Positions 12,498 to 20,789 of a stretch of DNA of 62,926 nucleotides are shown here, in pieces. The DNA is from Gemmatimonadota bacterium (GTDB taxonomy: Bacteria; Gemmatimonadota; Gemmatimonadetes; Gemmatimonadales; GWC2-71-9). How positions within the stretch are numbered: the stretch's first letter is position 1; every line of letters starts with the position of its first letter. The DNA is taken from positions 1 to 62,926 of the forward strand of contig QHUU01000058.1 in the NCBI GenBank assembly GCA_003222155.1. Reading direction: 5' to 3'. The notes under the pieces are model-generated. The model was given only the letters and a program-made list of their open reading frames with translations, had not been told where the DNA came from and made no database searches. The position numbers were made by a program, and so were the translations under genes.

Positions 12498-12513
12498 AAC
12501 CGCGTCGTTACAT

Positions 12514-12656
12514 GCGAACGGGGATCCACGGAAGCCGGTGCGAGTCCGGCGCGGCCCCGCCACTGTGACGGGCAGCTGTAGCGGCTCGACGCCACTGGGT
12601 GTGATCGCCCGGGAAGGCGAGCCGCTCGCCCGAAGCCAGGAGACGTCTTCGTTCGC
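12514..12656 (+). promoter_or_regulatory. Cobalamin (adenosylcobalamin) riboswitch
   Basis: The conserved aptamer parts are readable in order: GCCGGTGCGAGTCCGGC, then CCCCGCCACTGTGAC (about 12555-12568), and the B12 box AGCCAGGAGAC at 12634-12644. The outer P1 stem closes with GCGAACG (12514-12520) pairing perfectly with CGTTCGC (12650-12656). It stands between a promoter and an intrinsic terminator and precedes btuF, so cobalamin should switch off the uptake operon by premature termination. Confidence 0.93.
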
Positions 12657-12718
12657 GCCACCTGTAGGTCCCTCGCGGGAGGGATGGTGGCGCTGCGCAT
12701 GAGAGGCGCAGGCGCTAG

Positions 12719-12750
12719 CCCATCTCCGCTCCGTCGGGGGTGGGTTTTTT
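12719..12750 (+). terminator. Riboswitch-controlled intrinsic terminator
   Basis: A 9-bp stem, CCCATCTCC (12719-12727) with GGGGGTGGG (12736-12744), pairs throughout if two G-U pairs are allowed. It has an 8-base loop and six T residues (12745-12750). It ends 4 bases before the btuF ATG. A competing TGCGC/GCGCA hairpin at about 12694-12710 may be part of the antiterminator; that part is inference. Confidence 0.8.
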
Positions 12751-12754
12751 CGCT

Positions 12755-13651
12755 ATGCGCCGCTGGACAGTGCGCGCCCACCTCGCGGGACTCCTCGCGC
12801 TCGCCGCCGCGGCCTGCGCGCGGGGGGAGCGGGCGCCTTCCGACGGCCGCTTCGCCGTCGGCGACGACGCGGGCCGGCGGGTGTCGCTCGCCGCGCCCCC
12901 CCGCCGCATCGTGTCGCTCTTGCCGTCGTTCACCGAGATCCTCTTCGCCGTCGGCGCGGGCGACCGCCTCGTCGGCCGGACCGCGTGGTGCGACTACCCG
13001 CCCGCCGCGCTCGCCGTGCCGAGCGTGGGCGACGGCATGCCCCCGAACGTCGAGGCCGTGGCCGCCCGGCGGCCGGACCTCGTCGTGCTGTACCGCTCCG
13101 GCCCGAACGTCACGGCCGCCGCACAATTGGAGCGCCTCGGCATCCGGACGGTACTGTTCGATCTGAACCGGCTCGAGGATCTGGGACCCGTGGCCCGGCG
13201 GTTGGGCGTGCTCACGGGGCGCAGAGCAGCAGGGGACTCGTTGGCGCGAGCCATGGACAGTCTCGTGTCCCAAAGCCCCGAGTCCCCAACTCCTGGCACC
13301 AAGTCCCTCGTCTTCATCGTCTGGGACAACCCCCCGATCGTCATCGGGGCGGGGAGCTACCTCGACCAGCTCGCCTGGCTCGCCGGCGCCCGCAACGTGT
13401 TTCACGACATCGGCACGCCCTCCGCCCAGGTGTCGATCGAAACGATCGCGGCGCGGAAGCCGGACTTCATCGCTGTACTGTCGGACACGGCGGCGCGGCC
13501 GCGCTACGCCGACCGCCCGGAGTGGCGCGTAGTGGCGGCGGTGCGGAAGGGACGGTTTCTCTTCCTTCCGGGCCGGTTGTTCGGGCGACCCGGCCCCCGC
13601 GCCGGGGAGGCGGTCCGCGAGCTGCGGCGTCGGCTCGAGACCGCGCCGTGA
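12755..13651 (+). CDS. btuF: Cobalamin ABC transporter substrate-binding lipoprotein (BtuF-like)
   Basis: A 298-residue periplasmic binding protein. The N-terminal 20 residues are a lipoprotein signal ending LAAAAC (Cys21). The class III fold signature RIVSLLPSFTEILFAVGAGDRLVGRT and WCDYPP follow. First gene after the B12 riboswitch and followed by the permease and ATPase, so B12 capture is well supported. The ATG at 12755 is preferred because the GTG at 12740 lies in the terminator stem. Residues ~175-185 (SQSPESPTPGTKS) are a low-complexity insert encoded by a C-rich element. Confidence 0.93.
   Translation: MRRWTVRAHLAGLLALAAAACARGERAPSDGRFAVGDDAGRRVSLAAPPRRIVSLLPSFTEILFAVGAGDRLVGRTAWCDYPPAALAVPSVGDGMPPNVEAVAARRPDLVVLYRSGPNVTAAAQLERLGIRTVLFDLNRLEDLGPVARRLGVLTGRRAAGDSLARAMDSLVSQSPESPTPGTKSLVFIVWDNPPIVIGAGSYLDQLAWLAGARNVFHDIGTPSAQVSIETIAARKPDFIAVLSDTAARPRYADRPEWRVVAAVRKGRFLFLPGRLFGRPGPRAGEAVRELRRRLETAP
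13232..13287. repeat. G-rich/C-rich inverted repeat inside btuF
   Basis: GGGGACTCG (13232-13240) and its exact complement CGAGTCCCC (13279-13287) lie 38 bases apart. The right arm is embedded in a longer C-rich run with CCCCGAGTCCCC and AAGTCCC. It encodes the Ser/Pro insert between the two BtuF lobes. The sequence resembles the palindromes in mutL, miaA and tadA. Confidence 0.55.
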
Positions 13652-14589
13652 AGTACGTCGTGCTGGTCGGTGCGGCACTCGCGACCCTCGCGGCGGCGCT
13701 CCTCGTCGGGCCCGCCAACCTGCCGCTCGCGGACCTGTTCGGCTCGCCGATCGTGTGGCAGCTGCGGCTGCCTCGGGCGGTGCTGGCGTTCCTCGTGGGC
13801 GGCGCCCTCGGCGTCGCCGGCGCGAGCCTGCAGGCGCTGGTGCGCAACCCGCTGGCGGACCCGTTCCTGCTCGGCCTCTCGGGCGGCGCCGGCCTGGGTG
13901 CGGTGGCCGCGATCGCGCTCCACCTCCCGGGACCGTGGGCCCTCCCGCTCGCGGCGTTCATCGGGGCCGTGGGAGCGATGGCGCTGGTCTATCGGCTCGG
14001 GCTCATGGGCGGGGCCGAGCTCGATCCGCGCATCCTGCTGCTCGGCGGCGTAGCCGTGGGCGCGTTCGCGGCGGCCGTCACGACGGCGCTGGTCTCGCTC
14101 GCCGAGGCGACCGAGCTGCGCAACGCGTTCCTGTGGCTGTGGGGCGGGTTCTCCGGGGCGTCGTGGACCACGGTGCTCGTGATCCTCGCGTACGCGCCGC
14201 TGCCGCTCGGCGTGCTCGTCGCGGCCGCGCGGCCGCTCGATCTGCTCGCCCTGGGTGAGGAGCCCGCGCAGTACCTCGGCGCCGACGTGCGGCGGCTCAA
14301 GCAAGGCGTCTATCTGGCCGCGTCGCTCCTCACCGCCGCCGCCGTGGCGGTGGCGGGCGTGATCGGCTTCGTCGGGCTGGTCGTGCCGCACGTCTGTCGC
14401 CTCGTGTGGGGCCGGCTGCATCGCACCTTGCTGCCGACGGCGTTTCTCACGGGCGGGATCCTGCTCGCGGCGGCGGATACGCTGGCCCGCACCGTGGCGG
14501 CCCCGCGTGAGCTGCCGGTGGGGATCGTCACCGCCCTGCTCGGCGTCCCCGTGTTCGCGTTCCTGCTGCGCCGATGGACCGTGAGCTGA
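13648..14589 (+). CDS. btuC: Cobalamin ABC transporter permease (BtuC/FecCD family)
   Basis: A 313-residue polytopic protein with about nine to ten membrane segments. Family motifs are RLPRAVLAFLVGGALGVAGA, QALVRNPLADPFLLGLSGGAGLGA and GFVGLVVPHVCR near the ATPase-coupling helix. It forms the transmembrane pore of the B12 importer. GTG at 13648 overlaps the btuF stop; the C-terminus overlaps btuD by 16 bases. Confidence 0.95.
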   Translation: MKYVVLVGAALATLAAALLVGPANLPLADLFGSPIVWQLRLPRAVLAFLVGGALGVAGASLQALVRNPLADPFLLGLSGGAGLGAVAAIALHLPGPWALPLAAFIGAVGAMALVYRLGLMGGAELDPRILLLGGVAVGAFAAAVTTALVSLAEATELRNAFLWLWGGFSGASWTTVLVILAYAPLPLGVLVAAARPLDLLALGEEPAQYLGADVRRLKQGVYLAASLLTAAAVAVAGVIGFVGLVVPHVCRLVWGRLHRTLLPTAFLTGGILLAAADTLARTVAAPRELPVGIVTALLGVPVFAFLLRRWTVS

Positions 14590-15377
14590 TCCTCGCCTTG
14601 CGCGGCGTCACGTGCCGCTACCCGGACGCCCCGCGCGACAGTCTGGTGGGAGTCTCGCTCGAGGTGCGCGCGGGCGAGTTCCACGCCGTGCTGGGACCGA
14701 ACGGCAGCGGCAAGACAACGCTGGTGCGTGCGGCCCTCGGCCTGGTAGGGCCCGTCGCCGGTCGCGCCGAGATCCTGGGGCGTCCCGCCGGCGGCTGGTC
14801 GCGCCGCGAGCTGGCGCGTGTGGTCGGCGTGCTGCCGCAGCGCGAGGACAACCTGTTCCCGCAGCGCGTGCGGGAAACGGTGTCGCTGGGTCGCTACCCC
14901 CACCTCTCGCTGCTGGGCGGAATGGGCGCGGCGGACCGGGCGGCCGTCGAGCGGGCTCTCGTCGCGTGCGACGTGACGGACCTGGCCGATCGCTGGCTCT
15001 GGACGCTGTCGGGCGGCGAGTACCAGCGCGTCCGGTTGGCGCGGGCCCTGGCGCAGGAGCCCAAGCTGCTCGTGCTCGACGAGCCGACCGCATCGCTCGA
15101 CTTGCGCCACGAGATGCAGCTGTTCGAGCTGGTGCGCGCCCTGGTGGATGCGCACGGGCTCGGCGCGCTGATGATCACGCATCACGTCAATCTGGCCACG
15201 CGGTTCGCGGACCAGGTCTTGATCCTCGCCGACGGACGAGCCGTGGCGCGCGGCACCCCTGCCGACGTCCTGACCCGGGAGACCGCGGACCGCGTATTCG
15301 CGTGGCCCGTGTCGATCGTGCCGTTCGAAGGCCGGCCCCAGATGATTCCCCTACGACAGCGGAAGGAGGCACCATGA
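14574..15377 (+). CDS. btuD: Cobalamin ABC transporter ATP-binding protein
   Basis: A 267-residue ABC ATPase: Walker A GPNGSGKTT, Q-loop LPQRED, signature LSGGEYQRVRLARAL, Walker B LLVLDEPTASLDL and switch H in ITHHV. It powers the BtuC channel. Inside the riboswitch-controlled operon, between btuC and btuB. The last ~25 residues are a family-variable tail. Confidence 0.95.
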   Translation: MDRELILALRGVTCRYPDAPRDSLVGVSLEVRAGEFHAVLGPNGSGKTTLVRAALGLVGPVAGRAEILGRPAGGWSRRELARVVGVLPQREDNLFPQRVRETVSLGRYPHLSLLGGMGAADRAAVERALVACDVTDLADRWLWTLSGGEYQRVRLARALAQEPKLLVLDEPTASLDLRHEMQLFELVRALVDAHGLGALMITHHVNLATRFADQVLILADGRAVARGTPADVLTRETADRVFAWPVSIVPFEGRPQMIPLRQRKEAP

Positions 15378-17326
15378 GAGTCGCCCTGCGCGGCCTGCTG
15401 TTTGTCGTGTTTCCGGCGGCACTCGCCGGCCAAACTCCGATCGATACGGTGGAGCTCAACCCGGTTGTCGTCACGGCGACCCGCGTCCCCCGCTCGCTCG
15501 CTGGCGTGCCGGCCGCGGTCTCGGTGCTCCGCGGAGCTGACCTCCGCGCGCAGGGCATCCAGACCGTGTTCGAAGCACTGCGCGATGTTCCGGCGGCGGC
15601 CGTCGTACAGACCGGCTCGTTCGGCGGCCAGACGTCGTTGTTCGTGCGGGGCGGGCAGAGCAACTATGTGAAGGTGTTGGTGGACGGTGTGCCGGCGAAC
15701 CTGCCCGGGGGGTCGTTCGATTTCGCGAACCTGACTACCGCCAATGTGGAGCGAATCGAAGTCGTGCGCGGCCCGGCCAGCGTGCTGTACGGCTCGGACG
15801 CGGTAACCGGCGTCGTCCAGATTTTCACACGACGCGGAACGGGAGCGGACCGCACCGATGCGAGTGTGCGTGCCGGCACGTACGGGACTGTGGCGTGGGA
15901 TGCGGAGGCTTCCGGCGGGCGCCAAGTGGCCAGTTACTCCGTCTCTATCTCGCGCTTCACGAGCGACGGGATGTATGCGTTCAACAACGGGTACCACAAT
16001 ACGGTGTTCTCGGGGCTTGCACGCGTCGTTCCGGATGACCGGACGGACGCGACGCTCACTGTTCGCTACGGCGACGACGTATTTCATTTCCCGACCAACG
16101 GTGCAGGGAGACCTGTCGACCACAACCAGTTCAGCTATGGGAGCGGGCCGACCCTCGGGCTCGATCTGGGACACTATTTCAGCAGCCGCTTCGAGGTGCG
16201 CCTCCTCTTCGCCGCGAACGAAACCAATGGGGGGTTCGACAACCGGCCCGATAGTGCAGCGGACAGCTCCCGATTTCAGAATCTCGACGAGCTGCGGCGT
16301 TCCAGCGCGGACCTGCGGGCCAATCTCTACTTGCGCTCGGGCTCCGTCGTGACTGTGGGGACAGCCGTCGAGCAGGAGCGTGAGCACAGCTTCAACGTCT
16401 GTCAGACGTCGTTCGGCGACTGCACGACGCCGCCGATAGACTCGGCGCGTTGGAACGCCGGGTTCTATGCGCAGGGGGTGACGGACGTGGGCGGTCGCGT
16501 CGGCCTGACGACGGGAGTCCGCGTGGAGGACAATCAGCGCTTCGGCACCTTCATCACCTACCGACTGGGCGCGGTGTACCGGCTGGCGGCGGGAACGCGT
16601 CTCCGCGCGAACGCGGGCACGGGCTTTCGTGAGCCGAGCTTCTTTGAGAACTACTCGACGGGTTTCACGATCGGCAATCCCAACCTGCAACCCGAGCACT
16701 CGCGCAGCTGGGAGTTGGGCCTCGAGCAATCGCTGGCTCGCGACCGGGCCAGCATTTCGGCCGCGTTCTTCGACCAGCACTTTGCCGACATGATCGACTA
16801 TAACCCGAGCGCGACGGCGGGCGCTCCCAATTACTACAACGTGGCCGCTGCCGATGCGAACGGCGTCGAGTTGGGCATGCGGTTCCTGCCGACGGGACCC
16901 GCGTCGTTCGCCGCGAGCTATACCTATCTCCGCACTCAGATCACTAATCCGGGATTCGATCCATCTTCCGGGGCTCTACTCGCGGCGGGGCAGCCACTCA
17001 CGCGGCGTCCCAAGCACTCGGCCCGCCTCGACGCCAGCTATCGCCTGAAGGAACGCGGCAGCATGGCGCTCGCGGTCACTTACGTCGGCGATCGACAGGA
17101 TCAGGATTTCTCCACATTTCCGTTTCCCCGTGTGACCCTTCCCTCCTATGCGCGCGTCGACGTCGCCGCGCAGCTGGATGTGCTGCGGCCGCGGGACGGC
17201 GGACCCGGCGTGGGGGTCTCGGTCCGGGTCGAGAACCTGCTCGACCATCGCTACCAGGAGGTGAAGAACTTCCCCGCCCGCGGTCGCACACTGCTCGTCG
17301 GCGGACGCCTGACCTACGGATCGTGA
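15374..17326 (+). CDS. btuB: TonB-dependent outer-membrane cobalamin receptor
   Basis: A 650-residue receptor. A short signal peptide (MRVALRGLLFVVFPAALAGQ) is followed by a TonB-box-like VVVTATR. The plug domain shows VFVRGG-type and RIEVVRGPASVLYGSDAVTGVVQI motifs. The 22-strand barrel includes RANAGTGFREPSFFENYSTGF, NPNLQPEHSRSWELG and the terminal VRVENLLDHRYQEV region. Position in the B12-riboswitch operon supports cobalamin as ligand. GGAAGGAGG precedes the ATG. GC content falls slightly here, as in many barrels, without other signs of transfer. Confidence 0.93.
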   Translation: MRVALRGLLFVVFPAALAGQTPIDTVELNPVVVTATRVPRSLAGVPAAVSVLRGADLRAQGIQTVFEALRDVPAAAVVQTGSFGGQTSLFVRGGQSNYVKVLVDGVPANLPGGSFDFANLTTANVERIEVVRGPASVLYGSDAVTGVVQIFTRRGTGADRTDASVRAGTYGTVAWDAEASGGRQVASYSVSISRFTSDGMYAFNNGYHNTVFSGLARVVPDDRTDATLTVRYGDDVFHFPTNGAGRPVDHNQFSYGSGPTLGLDLGHYFSSRFEVRLLFAANETNGGFDNRPDSAADSSRFQNLDELRRSSADLRANLYLRSGSVVTVGTAVEQEREHSFNVCQTSFGDCTTPPIDSARWNAGFYAQGVTDVGGRVGLTTGVRVEDNQRFGTFITYRLGAVYRLAAGTRLRANAGTGFREPSFFENYSTGFTIGNPNLQPEHSRSWELGLEQSLARDRASISAAFFDQHFADMIDYNPSATAGAPNYYNVAAADANGVELGMRFLPTGPASFAASYTYLRTQITNPGFDPSSGALLAAGQPLTRRPKHSARLDASYRLKERGSMALAVTYVGDRQDQDFSTFPFPRVTLPSYARVDVAAQLDVLRPRDGGPGVGVSVRVENLLDHRYQEVKNFPARGRTLLVGGRLTYGS

Positions 17327-18252
17327 TCGAGCGCGCGCGTCGGATCGTCTCCCTGCTGCCGAGCGCGACCGAGATCGTGTGTGCGTTGGGCCTCGAGGAT
17401 CGCCTGGTCGGCGTCTCGCATTCCTGCGATTACCCGCCGCACGTCCGTACTAACCCGGTCCTCACGCGTCCACGGTTCCCGCTGGACGGGCTTTCGAGCG
17501 GCGAGATCGACGCCGCCGTGCGGCAGGCCCTGCGCGAGTTCGGCAGCGTGTACGAAGTCGACGGCGCGGGACTCGCCGCCGCGCGGCCCGACCTGCTGCT
17601 GACCCAGGGTGTGTGCGAGGTCTGCGCCGTGCCCACACGGGACGCCCAGGCGGCGGCCGCCGGGATCGCGACCTGCCCCAGCGTGCTCGCGTTGGACGCG
17701 CATGACATCGCGGGCGTCCTGCACACCATTCGCGCCGTCGGCCACGTCACGCAGGTGAGCGAGCGGGCCGACGCGTGCGTGCGCGATATCGAGCGGCGCA
17801 TCGCCTGCGTTCGGGCACGCGTGGAGGGCCGGACGCCCGTGTCGGTGCTGGCGCTTGAGTGGCTCGACCCGCCGTTCGTCCCGGGGCATTGGGTGCCCGA
17901 GATGGTGGCGCTGGCCGGGGGACGGCTGTTGCGCGGCACCGCCGGGCGGCGCTCGTTCGCCCTGTCGTGGGAGGAGATCGCCGGCCTCGATCCCGACGTC
18001 GTCCTCGTCATGCCGTGCGGATTCGACCTCGCCGCCGCCGGCGCCGACGCGGACCGCCACGCCGCGTCGCTGCGCGCGGCGGCGCCGCGGGCCATCGGCG
18101 CCGGACGTGCCTATGCCGTCGACGCCACGGCCCACTTCAGCCGTCCCGGGCCGCGCATCGCGGACGGCGTGGAGCTGCTCGCCGGGTTGCTGCATCCGGA
18201 GGCGTTCCCCGGCGTATCGCTCGAGGGCCGGGCCCGCCCGCTGGGAGGCTGA
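17323..18252 (+). CDS. Second BtuF-like cobalamin-binding protein, no signal peptide
   Basis: A 309-residue protein with the BtuF/FecB fold (RRIVSLLPSATEIVCALGLEDRLVGVSHSCDYPP). It has no signal sequence or lipobox and starts directly at the first beta-strand, so it appears cytoplasmic. The cysteine-containing TQGVCEVCAVPT segment and the LDPPFVPGHWVPEM segment are typical of the subfamily annotated as cobalamin-binding protein. Possible roles are intracellular B12 binding or salvage; neither is shown by sequence. GTG start inside the btuB stop. Confidence 0.8.
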   Translation: MIERARRIVSLLPSATEIVCALGLEDRLVGVSHSCDYPPHVRTNPVLTRPRFPLDGLSSGEIDAAVRQALREFGSVYEVDGAGLAAARPDLLLTQGVCEVCAVPTRDAQAAAAGIATCPSVLALDAHDIAGVLHTIRAVGHVTQVSERADACVRDIERRIACVRARVEGRTPVSVLALEWLDPPFVPGHWVPEMVALAGGRLLRGTAGRRSFALSWEEIAGLDPDVVLVMPCGFDLAAAGADADRHAASLRAAAPRAIGAGRAYAVDATAHFSRPGPRIADGVELLAGLLHPEAFPGVSLEGRARPLGG

Positions 18253-18253
18253 C

Positions 18254-18943
18254 GTGTCCCGCCCCCAGGACGTGCTCGTCGCGTGGAGCGGCGGCAAGGA
18301 CAGCGCGCTCGCGTTGCGGGAGATTGTGCACGACGGTCGCTACCGGGTCGCGGCGCTCCTCACCACGGTAACGCGAGAATACGACCGGATCAGCATGCAC
18401 GGCGTGCGCCGCACCCTGCTCGAGCGGCAGGCGGCCTCCCTCGGCCTGCCGCTCGAGCAGGTGGTGATCTCGCCGGGCGCCACGAACGACGAATACGAGG
18501 GGAAGATGGCCTCGACCCTCGAGGCGCTCCGCGACCGGATGCCGGGCCTCGACACGGTCGTCTTCGGGGACCTGTTCCTGGCGGACATCCGTGCCTATCG
18601 GGAGCGCATGCTGGCGCGGACCGGCATGCGGGCGCTGTTCCCGCTGTGGCTGCGCGATACCCGGGCGCTGGCGCACGAATTCGTGCGCCTGGGATACCGC
18701 GCCGTGCTGGTGTGCGTGGATGCGGACCAACTCACGCCCGAGTTCGCGGGCCGGGAGTTCGACGCCGACCTGCTGCGGGACATCCCGTCGACCGTGGACC
18801 CATGCGGGGAAAACGGCGAGTTCCACACCTTCGTGTATGCGGGTCCGGGGTTTCGGCACGCCGTGCGGCACGCGCGGGGCCCGGTCGTCGTGCGAGACCG
18901 CCGGTTCGTATATTGTGATCTTGTGGAGACCGACGCTCGATGA
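18254..18943 (+). CDS. PP-loop ATP pyrophosphatase of the Dph6/MJ0570 family
   Basis: A 229-residue protein. The N-type ATP pyrophosphatase loop SGGKDSALAL is at residues ~11-20, and the family segments GVRRTLLERQAASLGLPLEQV, VFGDLFLADIRAYRE and DPCGENGEFHTFVYAGP are intact. Eukaryotic and archaeal relatives amidate diphthine, but bacteria lack diphthamide, so the bacterial substrate is unknown. It lies between two genes of the B12 operon (1-base gap after the BtuF-like gene, ATGA overlap to the next), suggesting a cobalamin or cobinamide-related amidation. That is inference. Confidence 0.75.
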   Translation: MSRPQDVLVAWSGGKDSALALREIVHDGRYRVAALLTTVTREYDRISMHGVRRTLLERQAASLGLPLEQVVISPGATNDEYEGKMASTLEALRDRMPGLDTVVFGDLFLADIRAYRERMLARTGMRALFPLWLRDTRALAHEFVRLGYRAVLVCVDADQLTPEFAGREFDADLLRDIPSTVDPCGENGEFHTFVYAGPGFRHAVRHARGPVVVRDRRFVYCDLVETDAR

Positions 18944-19983
18944 GACGACTCGCCTTGCTCGCCCTCGTGCTCGCCGCCGCGTGCAGCGACGCGCTCGAGC
19001 AGACCAGCTCGGCGGGGCAGGTGATCGGCGTCATCAATGCGTCCGACCTGTCCCTCGTCTCCGCCACGGATTTCAGCGTGACGACGCGGTCCTGGCCGGG
19101 CACCACAGCGGGCCCCAGTGCGATCGCCGGGGGAGGCCGGACCTTCGTGGTCACCCTCGAGCAGGCCAACGCCGTAGGCGTGAGTCTGCTGGTTACGTGC
19201 CCGCCTGATCCTGTCGCGCTGTGTGCGCGGGCTGATTACGTGCTGCCCCTCCGTGCCGGGTCGGAACCCGACGGTGTCGCCATCCAGGACGACTCGATCG
19301 CGTGGATCGCCAATCGCGCCCTCAACTCCGTTACCCGGCTCAACTACTTCACCGGCGAGACGACGAGCGTTGCGGCCGGCGTCTTCCCGCGAGCGGTCGT
19401 GTTGGTCGGCAGCCGCGTGTTCGTCGTCAACAGCAATCTCGTGGGTGGCAGCCCGGCCGGGCCGAGCTGGCTGACGTCATTCGAGTGTTGCGGGGTCAGG
19501 ACGCCGGATTCGATTCCGCTCACCGGCTTGGCCGCCCGCTTCGCCGTTGTGGGGGACGACAGCTTGCTGTACGTGGTCGCGGCCGGCAGGTCTGGAGCGG
19601 CGGATGGCAAGCTTTCCATTGTCGATCCCAAGCGCCGCACCGAGGTCGCCGTCCTCAACGGGCTGGGTGAGTCACCGGGGGCGGTGGTGTTTCATCCCAC
19701 TGGGAGCCGTCTGCTGATCGCGTCGGCCAGGGAGGGCATCCTCGAGGTAAACACGTCCATCCGCGCCGTGACGCGCGCGCCTGGCAACGGCATCAAACCA
19801 GGTGGCAGCGGCATCAACGGTGTCGCGATCGACCTCCGCGGCCGCGTGTACGCGGTCGGGCCCGGTGGATGCAACGGGCCTGGCATGGTGCATGTCCTGA
19901 CAGCGCCGCCCGATTACCGCGAGATCCACACCGTGACGGTCGGGATCTGTCCGACGACCGCCGCGGTGGCGGCGACGCAGTAG
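18940..19983 (+). CDS. Beta-propeller-like lipoprotein, candidate BtuG analogue
   Basis: A 347-residue protein with a lipobox at LVLAAACSD (Cys15). The mature part is beta-rich with repeated YncE-like blade motifs: PDGVAIQDDSIAWIANRALNSVTRLN, PRAVVLVGSRVFVVNSN, GKLSIVDPKRRTEVAVL and HPTGSRLLIASAREGILEV. No enzyme motif is visible. It is the last gene of the B12 operon, overlapping the PP-loop gene. In Bacteroides the surface lipoprotein BtuG is a beta-propeller that captures B12 for BtuB, so an equivalent role is plausible; it rests on fold, lipidation and position only. A TATATT hexamer at 18909-18914 may be an internal promoter. Confidence 0.65.
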   Translation: MRRLALLALVLAAACSDALEQTSSAGQVIGVINASDLSLVSATDFSVTTRSWPGTTAGPSAIAGGGRTFVVTLEQANAVGVSLLVTCPPDPVALCARADYVLPLRAGSEPDGVAIQDDSIAWIANRALNSVTRLNYFTGETTSVAAGVFPRAVVLVGSRVFVVNSNLVGGSPAGPSWLTSFECCGVRTPDSIPLTGLAARFAVVGDDSLLYVVAAGRSGAADGKLSIVDPKRRTEVAVLNGLGESPGAVVFHPTGSRLLIASAREGILEVNTSIRAVTRAPGNGIKPGGSGINGVAIDLRGRVYAVGPGGCNGPGMVHVLTAPPDYREIHTVTVGICPTTAAVAATQ

Positions 19984-19985
19984 CC

Positions 19986-20789
19986 ATGTCCCTCGTCACC
20001 ACCCCCGCCATCGTGCTCCAGACGTACCGCTACAGCGAGACGTCCAAGGTGGTGCGGCTCGCGACGCGCGACCTGGGCGTGCAGAGCGCGATCGCCAAGG
20101 GCGCGCTCCGTCCCAAGAGCCGCTTCGGGGCGGGGCTCGAGCTGTTGAGCGAGGGGGTGGCCCAGCTCTACTTCCGCGAGACGCGCGAGCTTCACACGCT
20201 GGGGGCGTTCGATCTGGTCAACCTGCGACGCGACCTGGCCGCGGACGTGGGTCGCTTTGCCGGTGCCACGGCGCTCACGGAGGTCATGCTCAAGATGGCG
20301 CCCCCGGCGCCGCTACCCGTCGCCTACGACACGCTCACGAGCGCGCTCGACGCGCTCGAACAGGTGCCCCCGGGGCAGATCGATGCCGCCGCCGTGCGAG
20401 CGCTGTGGTCCCTGCTCGCCGTGCTCGGCTTCGAGCCGTCGCTCGCCCGCTGTGCGCGCGACGGATCGGCGATCGAGCCGGCGACGGACGAGCCCGTGCT
20501 CTTCAGCGTGGCGGACGGGGGAGCGCTGTGTCCGCGCTGCGGACCGACCTCGGCCCAACCACCCAGCCGGCTCCCGCCCCGTGCGTACGCCGATCTCGTC
20601 GCCCTGAACGACCCGCGAGCGGAGCTGCCGCCGCTCGATGCTCCACACGCGGCCGCCCACCGCCGCCTCGTCGCCCGCTTCGTCCGCTACCACCTCGGCG
20701 AAGCCGGCCCACTTTCGGCCCTGGACTTCTGGGAGCGTCGCGCGTGGGTACCCCCCACTCCAACTCCGATTCCCTCCGCCGCTTCGTAA
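19986..20789 (+). CDS. recO: DNA repair protein RecO
   Basis: A 267-residue RecO. The N-terminal OB fold (TPAIVLQTYRYSETSKVVRLATRDLG, AKGALRPKSRF) is followed by the helical C-terminal domain. The zinc site is degenerate: CARDG appears at about 159 and CPRCG at about 180, the spacing expected of RecO zinc cysteines. It acts with RecR/RecF in loading RecA on SSB-coated DNA. It starts 2 bases after the lipoprotein gene and overlaps selB by 46 bases. Confidence 0.92.
   Translation: MSLVTTPAIVLQTYRYSETSKVVRLATRDLGVQSAIAKGALRPKSRFGAGLELLSEGVAQLYFRETRELHTLGAFDLVNLRRDLAADVGRFAGATALTEVMLKMAPPAPLPVAYDTLTSALDALEQVPPGQIDAAAVRALWSLLAVLGFEPSLARCARDGSAIEPATDEPVLFSVADGGALCPRCGPTSAQPPSRLPPRAYADLVALNDPRAELPPLDAPHAAAHRRLVARFVRYHLGEAGPLSALDFWERRAWVPPTPTPIPSAAS

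Follow-up and report, generated by a model that had tools for sequence, protein, structure and literature searches.

In a soil bacterium of the Gemmatimonadota, a predicted seven-bladed β-propeller lipoprotein is encoded together with btuB, the gene of the TonB-dependent vitamin B12 receptor, in an operon headed by a cobalamin riboswitch. The operon lies on contig QHUU01000058.1, of which positions 1 to 62,926 were analysed and are referred to here as the window. The propeller most likely works like BtuG of Bacteroides, and its best reading is that of a likely BtuG-like corrinoid-capturing surface lipoprotein outside Bacteroidetes, one that would bind corrinoids, be exposed at the cell surface and dock on BtuB. 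Capture of B12 at the cell surface is likely because relatives of the propeller in the phylum nearly always adjoin B12 uptake genes. The predicted fold resembles that of BtuG, from which the protein may or may not descend.

Organization of the operon

The genes downstream of the riboswitch lie on one strand and overlap or are closely spaced, in the order btuF, btuC, btuD, btuB, a second btuF-like gene, a Dph6-like gene and the propeller gene (Table 1). The start of the btuC-like gene, as read in the sequence, overlaps btuF via GTGA, and the propeller start overlaps the stop of the Dph6-like gene via ATGA, an arrangement of translational coupling. A preliminary description of this DNA had placed the propeller gene last in a cobalamin-riboswitch operon shared with btuB. 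The shared operon is borne out, with riboswitch, btuB and propeller on the same strand; the last position is less certain, because recO starts only 2 nt past the propeller stop.

Table 1. Features of the B12 uptake operon and its downstream neighbour in the window
Feature	Position	Strand	Evidence
Cobalamin riboswitch (RF00174)	12505..12664	+	79.9 bits, gathering 31.5, E 4.7e-18
btuF-like periplasmic substrate-binding (lipo)protein	12740..13651	+	Peripla_BP_2 E 3e-28; best NCBIfam match BtuF E 1.5e-25, under its cut-off
btuC-like permease	13648..14589	+	FecCD E 2.5e-87; best NCBIfam match vitamin B12 BtuC, under its cut-off
btuD-like ATPase	14574..15377	+	ABC_tran E 2e-29; best NCBIfam match corrinoid ABC transporter ATPase, under its cut-off
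btuB, TonB-dependent B12 receptor, E. coli type	15374..17326	+	Plug + TonB barrel; PDB match E. coli BtuB 1nqf
Second btuF-like protein, without visible signal peptide	17323..18252	+	Peripla_BP_2 E 5e-17; translation begins at mature domain
Diphthamide-synthase-like (Dph6) ATP pyrophosphatase	18254..18943	+	PF01902 E 5.5e-32; GTG start at 18254 read in sequence
BtuG-like propeller lipoprotein (predicted)	18940..19983	+	AlphaFold2 pLDDT 87.3, pTM 0.86; Foldseek top 5 all BtuG
Constant signal peptide and lipoprotein tether (aa 1-27)	18940..19020	+	DNA identity to relative L040 95% vs 52% for rest of gene
recO	19986..20789	+	RecO_N + RecO_C; neighbour, presumably outside the functional unit

The receptor is of the E. 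coli type. Its best match in the PDB is E. coli BtuB over the full length (E 1.5e-41), while BtuB1 of Bacteroides thetaiotaomicron reaches only 3.7e-6. E. coli BtuB also came first for a profile built from eight of these Gemmatimonadota receptors. The second BtuF-like gene was found in only 4 of 15 close loci, some of those loci being incomplete; its product carries no signal peptide and is therefore perhaps cytoplasmic. The Dph6-like gene, placed inside a B12 uptake operon, is kept in most close relatives.

The propeller reading frame was found at exactly the coordinates first given for the gene and encodes 347 amino acids. Its N-terminus, MRRLALLALVLAAAC, fits a PROSITE-type lipobox pattern with the cysteine at position 15, in agreement with the lipidation proposed at the outset; almost every full-length orthologue likewise shows a lipobox. 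Several family members depart from this plan. The orthologues at loci L114-L119 and L124-L127 carry about 100 additional N-terminal residues, and some members of the family show PKD and bacterial Ig-like matches. Downstream of btuB, propeller genes are duplicated in tandem at L106 (8256-10510) and L112 (2060-4314), and the reading frame is broken at L034 (4201-5053) and L038 (4204-5187) (frameshift; in-frame TAA), through assembly error or decay.

Predicted fold and sequence affiliation

The AlphaFold2 model of the window propeller, computed from an alignment of 13 sequences, has seven four-stranded blades and a C-terminal strand that closes the ring (DSSP of the model, blades counted by eye). 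In a Foldseek comparison of this model with the PDB, ranks 1 to 5 were held by structures of BtuG1, BtuG2 and BtuG3 (E 2.5e-12 to 3.8e-11, TM ~0.7) at 13-16% identity, and E. coli YncE appeared lower in the same list, from rank 31 onward. For L040, a relative with 42% identity that was modelled as well, the YVTN propeller 1l0q headed the list and BtuG structures held ranks 2-10; these two models, both from the B12-linked propeller family, were the only Foldseek queries. Structure prediction and comparison with BtuG, as the preliminary description had proposed, thus gave a confident seven-bladed β-propeller with BtuG nearest. Both models are propellers, so that a different fold, named there as what would count against the idea, was not found.

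Sequence searches place the protein more broadly. The YncE-like blades first described are weak in a single sequence (best Pfam E 0.06) and strong in profile and structure evidence; single-sequence family scans against Pfam and NCBIfam were uninformative. BtuG was absent, up to E 10, from a single-sequence PDB search with the window propeller, and the designed Pizza propellers that headed it were set aside because they reflect one repeated NHL-like blade. A profile of 17 homologues finds BtuG1 (PDB 8BLW, BtuB1G1) at E 3e-9, and a profile of 38 homologues (A5) finds 1l0q at E 2.8e-21 vs 2.8e-11 for BtuG1; the profile matches to BtuG1 span about 170 residues. For DUF5074 (PF16819) the window propeller gave no match and did not reach the gathering cut-off, and at E 0.001 only 3 of 38 orthologues match it, weakly; a BtuG1 fragment itself is barely over that cut-off (27.3 vs 27.2 bits). 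Another propeller model is matched by 21 of the 38 family members, TIGR02276 being found in 15.

The BtuG family has been defined by a BlastP E-value of 1e-10 (PMC6143338), a level of sequence homology that the window propeller does not reach, BtuG1 being found only by family profiles. Judged by its sequence, the propeller is a member of the broad YVTN/YncE superfamily; with its homology to BtuG below that level, it is not classed within the BtuG family. The designation "BtuG-like, outside Bacteroidetes" accordingly holds as a claim on the mode of working, for which fold and B12-locus linkage speak, and is not established as a claim of specific BtuG homology, given the low identity, the few DUF5074 matches and the rank of 1l0q above BtuG1. 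A crude loop count of the window propeller showed no charge asymmetry between faces of the BtuG2 type. Over 38 orthologues the top-face loops are more conserved than the bottom loops (p 0.001), an excess that is absent among close relatives.

Linkage to B12 uptake genes across Gemmatimonadota

A strong orthologue occurs in 80 of 298 Gemmatimonadota genomes, most of them far apart in E-value from generic propellers. Neighbouring genes were inspected at 81 loci. A BtuB-type TonB receptor lies directly upstream of the propeller at 63 of these, btuFCD lies upstream with no receptor between at 14, other btu genes occur within 9 kb at two, and a contig end cuts the locus at the remaining two. In total, 79 of 81 loci show linkage to btu genes. 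Many families are represented, and flanking genes, recO among them, vary between the loci. A cobalamin riboswitch is found upstream on the same strand for 60 of the 80 orthologues, at a distance of 2.2-6.5 kb (median 2.8 kb), vs an expectation of about 0.2% per genome; of the other 20 loci, 14 are cut by contig ends and six are intact without one. In the majority of distant families the order is reduced to riboswitch, btuB, propeller. This confirms the linkage that the preliminary description had asked to see in the phylum, and the lack of linkage to B12 loci that it held to be damaging was not observed.

Of 17 genomes searched in which btuB is not beside the propeller, 14 have a BtuB-like receptor elsewhere; in at least 11 genomes this receptor follows another cobalamin riboswitch within 1.2 kb. 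Three intact loci (L041, L043 and L152) have the propeller after btuFCD with no upstream riboswitch found, and btuB elsewhere near its own riboswitch.

CbiC was not found in the genome of the window, and de novo B12 synthesis therefore appears unlikely. The MetH activation domain was not found in this genome, and proteins with B12-binding domains are present. In published work, no de novo B12 pathway was found in metagenome-assembled genomes of Gemmatimonadota, and cultures require B12 (PMC10581226).

Variability of BtuB and the propeller

Fifteen close loci (the window compared with the L027-L040 set) were compared in pairs filtered at a RecO identity of at least 78%. Median identities in these pairs were 87% for BtuC, 83% for BtuD, 78% for BtuF, 76% for Dph6, 60% for the propeller and 54% for BtuB, which makes BtuB and the propeller the two most variable proteins of the operon. 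Between the window and L040, the flanks are mostly 90-96% identical in DNA and recO 95%, vs 60% for btuB. Within the propeller gene the break comes right after codon 27, codons 1-27 being 95% identical and the remainder 52%. A like contrast separates L027 from L038 (RecO 94%, BtuB 51%, propeller 48%). This pattern reads as replacement of propeller alleles behind a constant lipoprotein tether, and the hypervariability of BtuB and propeller suggests that both are surface-exposed.

Exchange of btuB and propeller alleles as a matched pair was ruled out because L038 and L040 show mismatched combinations. The trees of BtuB and propeller are significantly similar (partial r 0.39-0.40); this is not counted for docking since it is no better than with BtuF (0.40).

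Proposed function and alternatives

It is reasonably probable that the propeller, as an outer-membrane lipoprotein, captures cobalamin or other corrinoids at the surface and hands them over to BtuB, the job of BtuG in Bacteroides. Scarce corrinoids would lead the riboswitch to switch the operon on. The propeller would take up the vitamin in a pocket on the propeller axis and pass it to BtuB, TonB would drive it into the periplasm, and BtuF and BtuCD would then import it. The propeller might also act as a hinged lid over BtuB, with a chance somewhat short of even. Several findings were counted against a BtuG-like role: the YVTN surface-layer protein outscores BtuG1, other propeller models match over half of the family, loop counting shows no charge asymmetry, the BtuB partner is of the E. 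coli type, 14 loci have btuFCD only, tree similarity is no higher than with BtuF, alleles are not strictly paired, and close relatives lack the excess conservation of top loops. E. coli BtuB works without BtuG. A more tentative proposal, held with less confidence than the lid, is that Gemmatimonadota evolved or kept a lipoprotein-assisted B12 uptake of their own, in which a separately recruited YVTN propeller and an E. coli-type BtuB would form a hypervariable pair, whole propeller alleles being exchanged behind the constant tether under phage or bacteriocin pressure.

The lipoprotein might instead face the periplasm, from the inner leaflet of the outer membrane or from the inner membrane, and carry or buffer corrinoid from BtuB to BtuF, much as the propeller AztD does with zinc for its ABC transporter. 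The propeller does stay beside btuFCD at 14 loci with btuB elsewhere, and AztD structures are among the Foldseek matches (E ~1e-10). To our knowledge, it has not been established that Gemmatimonadota export lipoproteins to the surface, which favours this placement, and we know of no counterpart there of the Bacteroidetes lipoprotein export signal. However, propeller variation resembles that of BtuB and not that of BtuF, and the minimal order in the majority of distant families joins the propeller to riboswitch and btuB; a periplasmic carrier is thus unlikely.

Less probable again, and improbable overall, is a surface protein that sits beside BtuB without binding corrinoids and modulates the receptor or protects it, for instance from bacteriocins or phages that exploit BtuB. 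The joint hypervariability of propeller and receptor, with alleles replaced at the tether, would suit such a protein. However, the solved structures nearest to the propeller are corrinoid binders, B12-regulated expression is expected of a nutrient binder, and the propeller is retained at loci without linked btuB. That a generic YVTN/YncE propeller of the envelope only hitchhikes in the operon is very improbable: the sequence does fall within that broad superfamily, but the btu linkage holds across many families while flanks such as recO change, and the weaker propeller paralogues of the genome lie on contigs other than that of the single riboswitch found.

Comparison with known systems

BtuG has been stated to be exclusive to Bacteroidetes (PMC6143338), as have lipoprotein-capped TonB transporters (PMC10404256), and no report of BtuG in Gemmatimonadota was found in the open-access literature. 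If BtuG-like capture is true, lipoprotein-assisted vitamin capture would be a wider answer to scarcity, in an abundant soil phylum, and the capture lipoprotein would here partner a receptor of a type known to function by itself. Scavenging of B12 would then have a concrete mechanism in a phylum that requires the vitamin in culture (PMC10581226), and the system would offer a natural test of whether diversification of a capture protein goes hand in hand with that of its receptor.

The closest known system is that of BtuG1, BtuG2 and BtuG3 of B. thetaiotaomicron (PMC6143338, PMC10404256), which shares the seven-bladed propeller lipoprotein, the btuB linkage and the cobalamin riboswitch and provides the nearest solved structures. 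The window propeller differs in its structural identity of 12-16%, its phylum and its E. coli-type partner, and loop counting gave no sign of the BtuG2 charge asymmetry. BtuG combines a negative B12 face on charge-asymmetric faces, high-affinity corrinoid binding and a stable complex with BtuB from which release is driven by EL8; the window propeller is known from sequence and model.

The archaeal surface-layer YVTN β-propeller (1l0q), the best profile match, and E. coli YncE share its fold and sequence superfamily. Unlike the window propeller, they have no known link to B12, and YncE stands well below BtuG by structure. AztD, a zinc chaperone found by Foldseek, is also a propeller and serves the ABC-type uptake of a metal, with a lower TM-score (~0.58). 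We know of no TonB receptor partner of AztD. The DUF4465 proteins BtuJ1 and BtuJ2 are accessory B12-binding proteins, the role proposed here for the propeller; they are found close to B12 transport loci of several phyla but adopt a β-jellyroll fold and not a propeller (PMC13398666).
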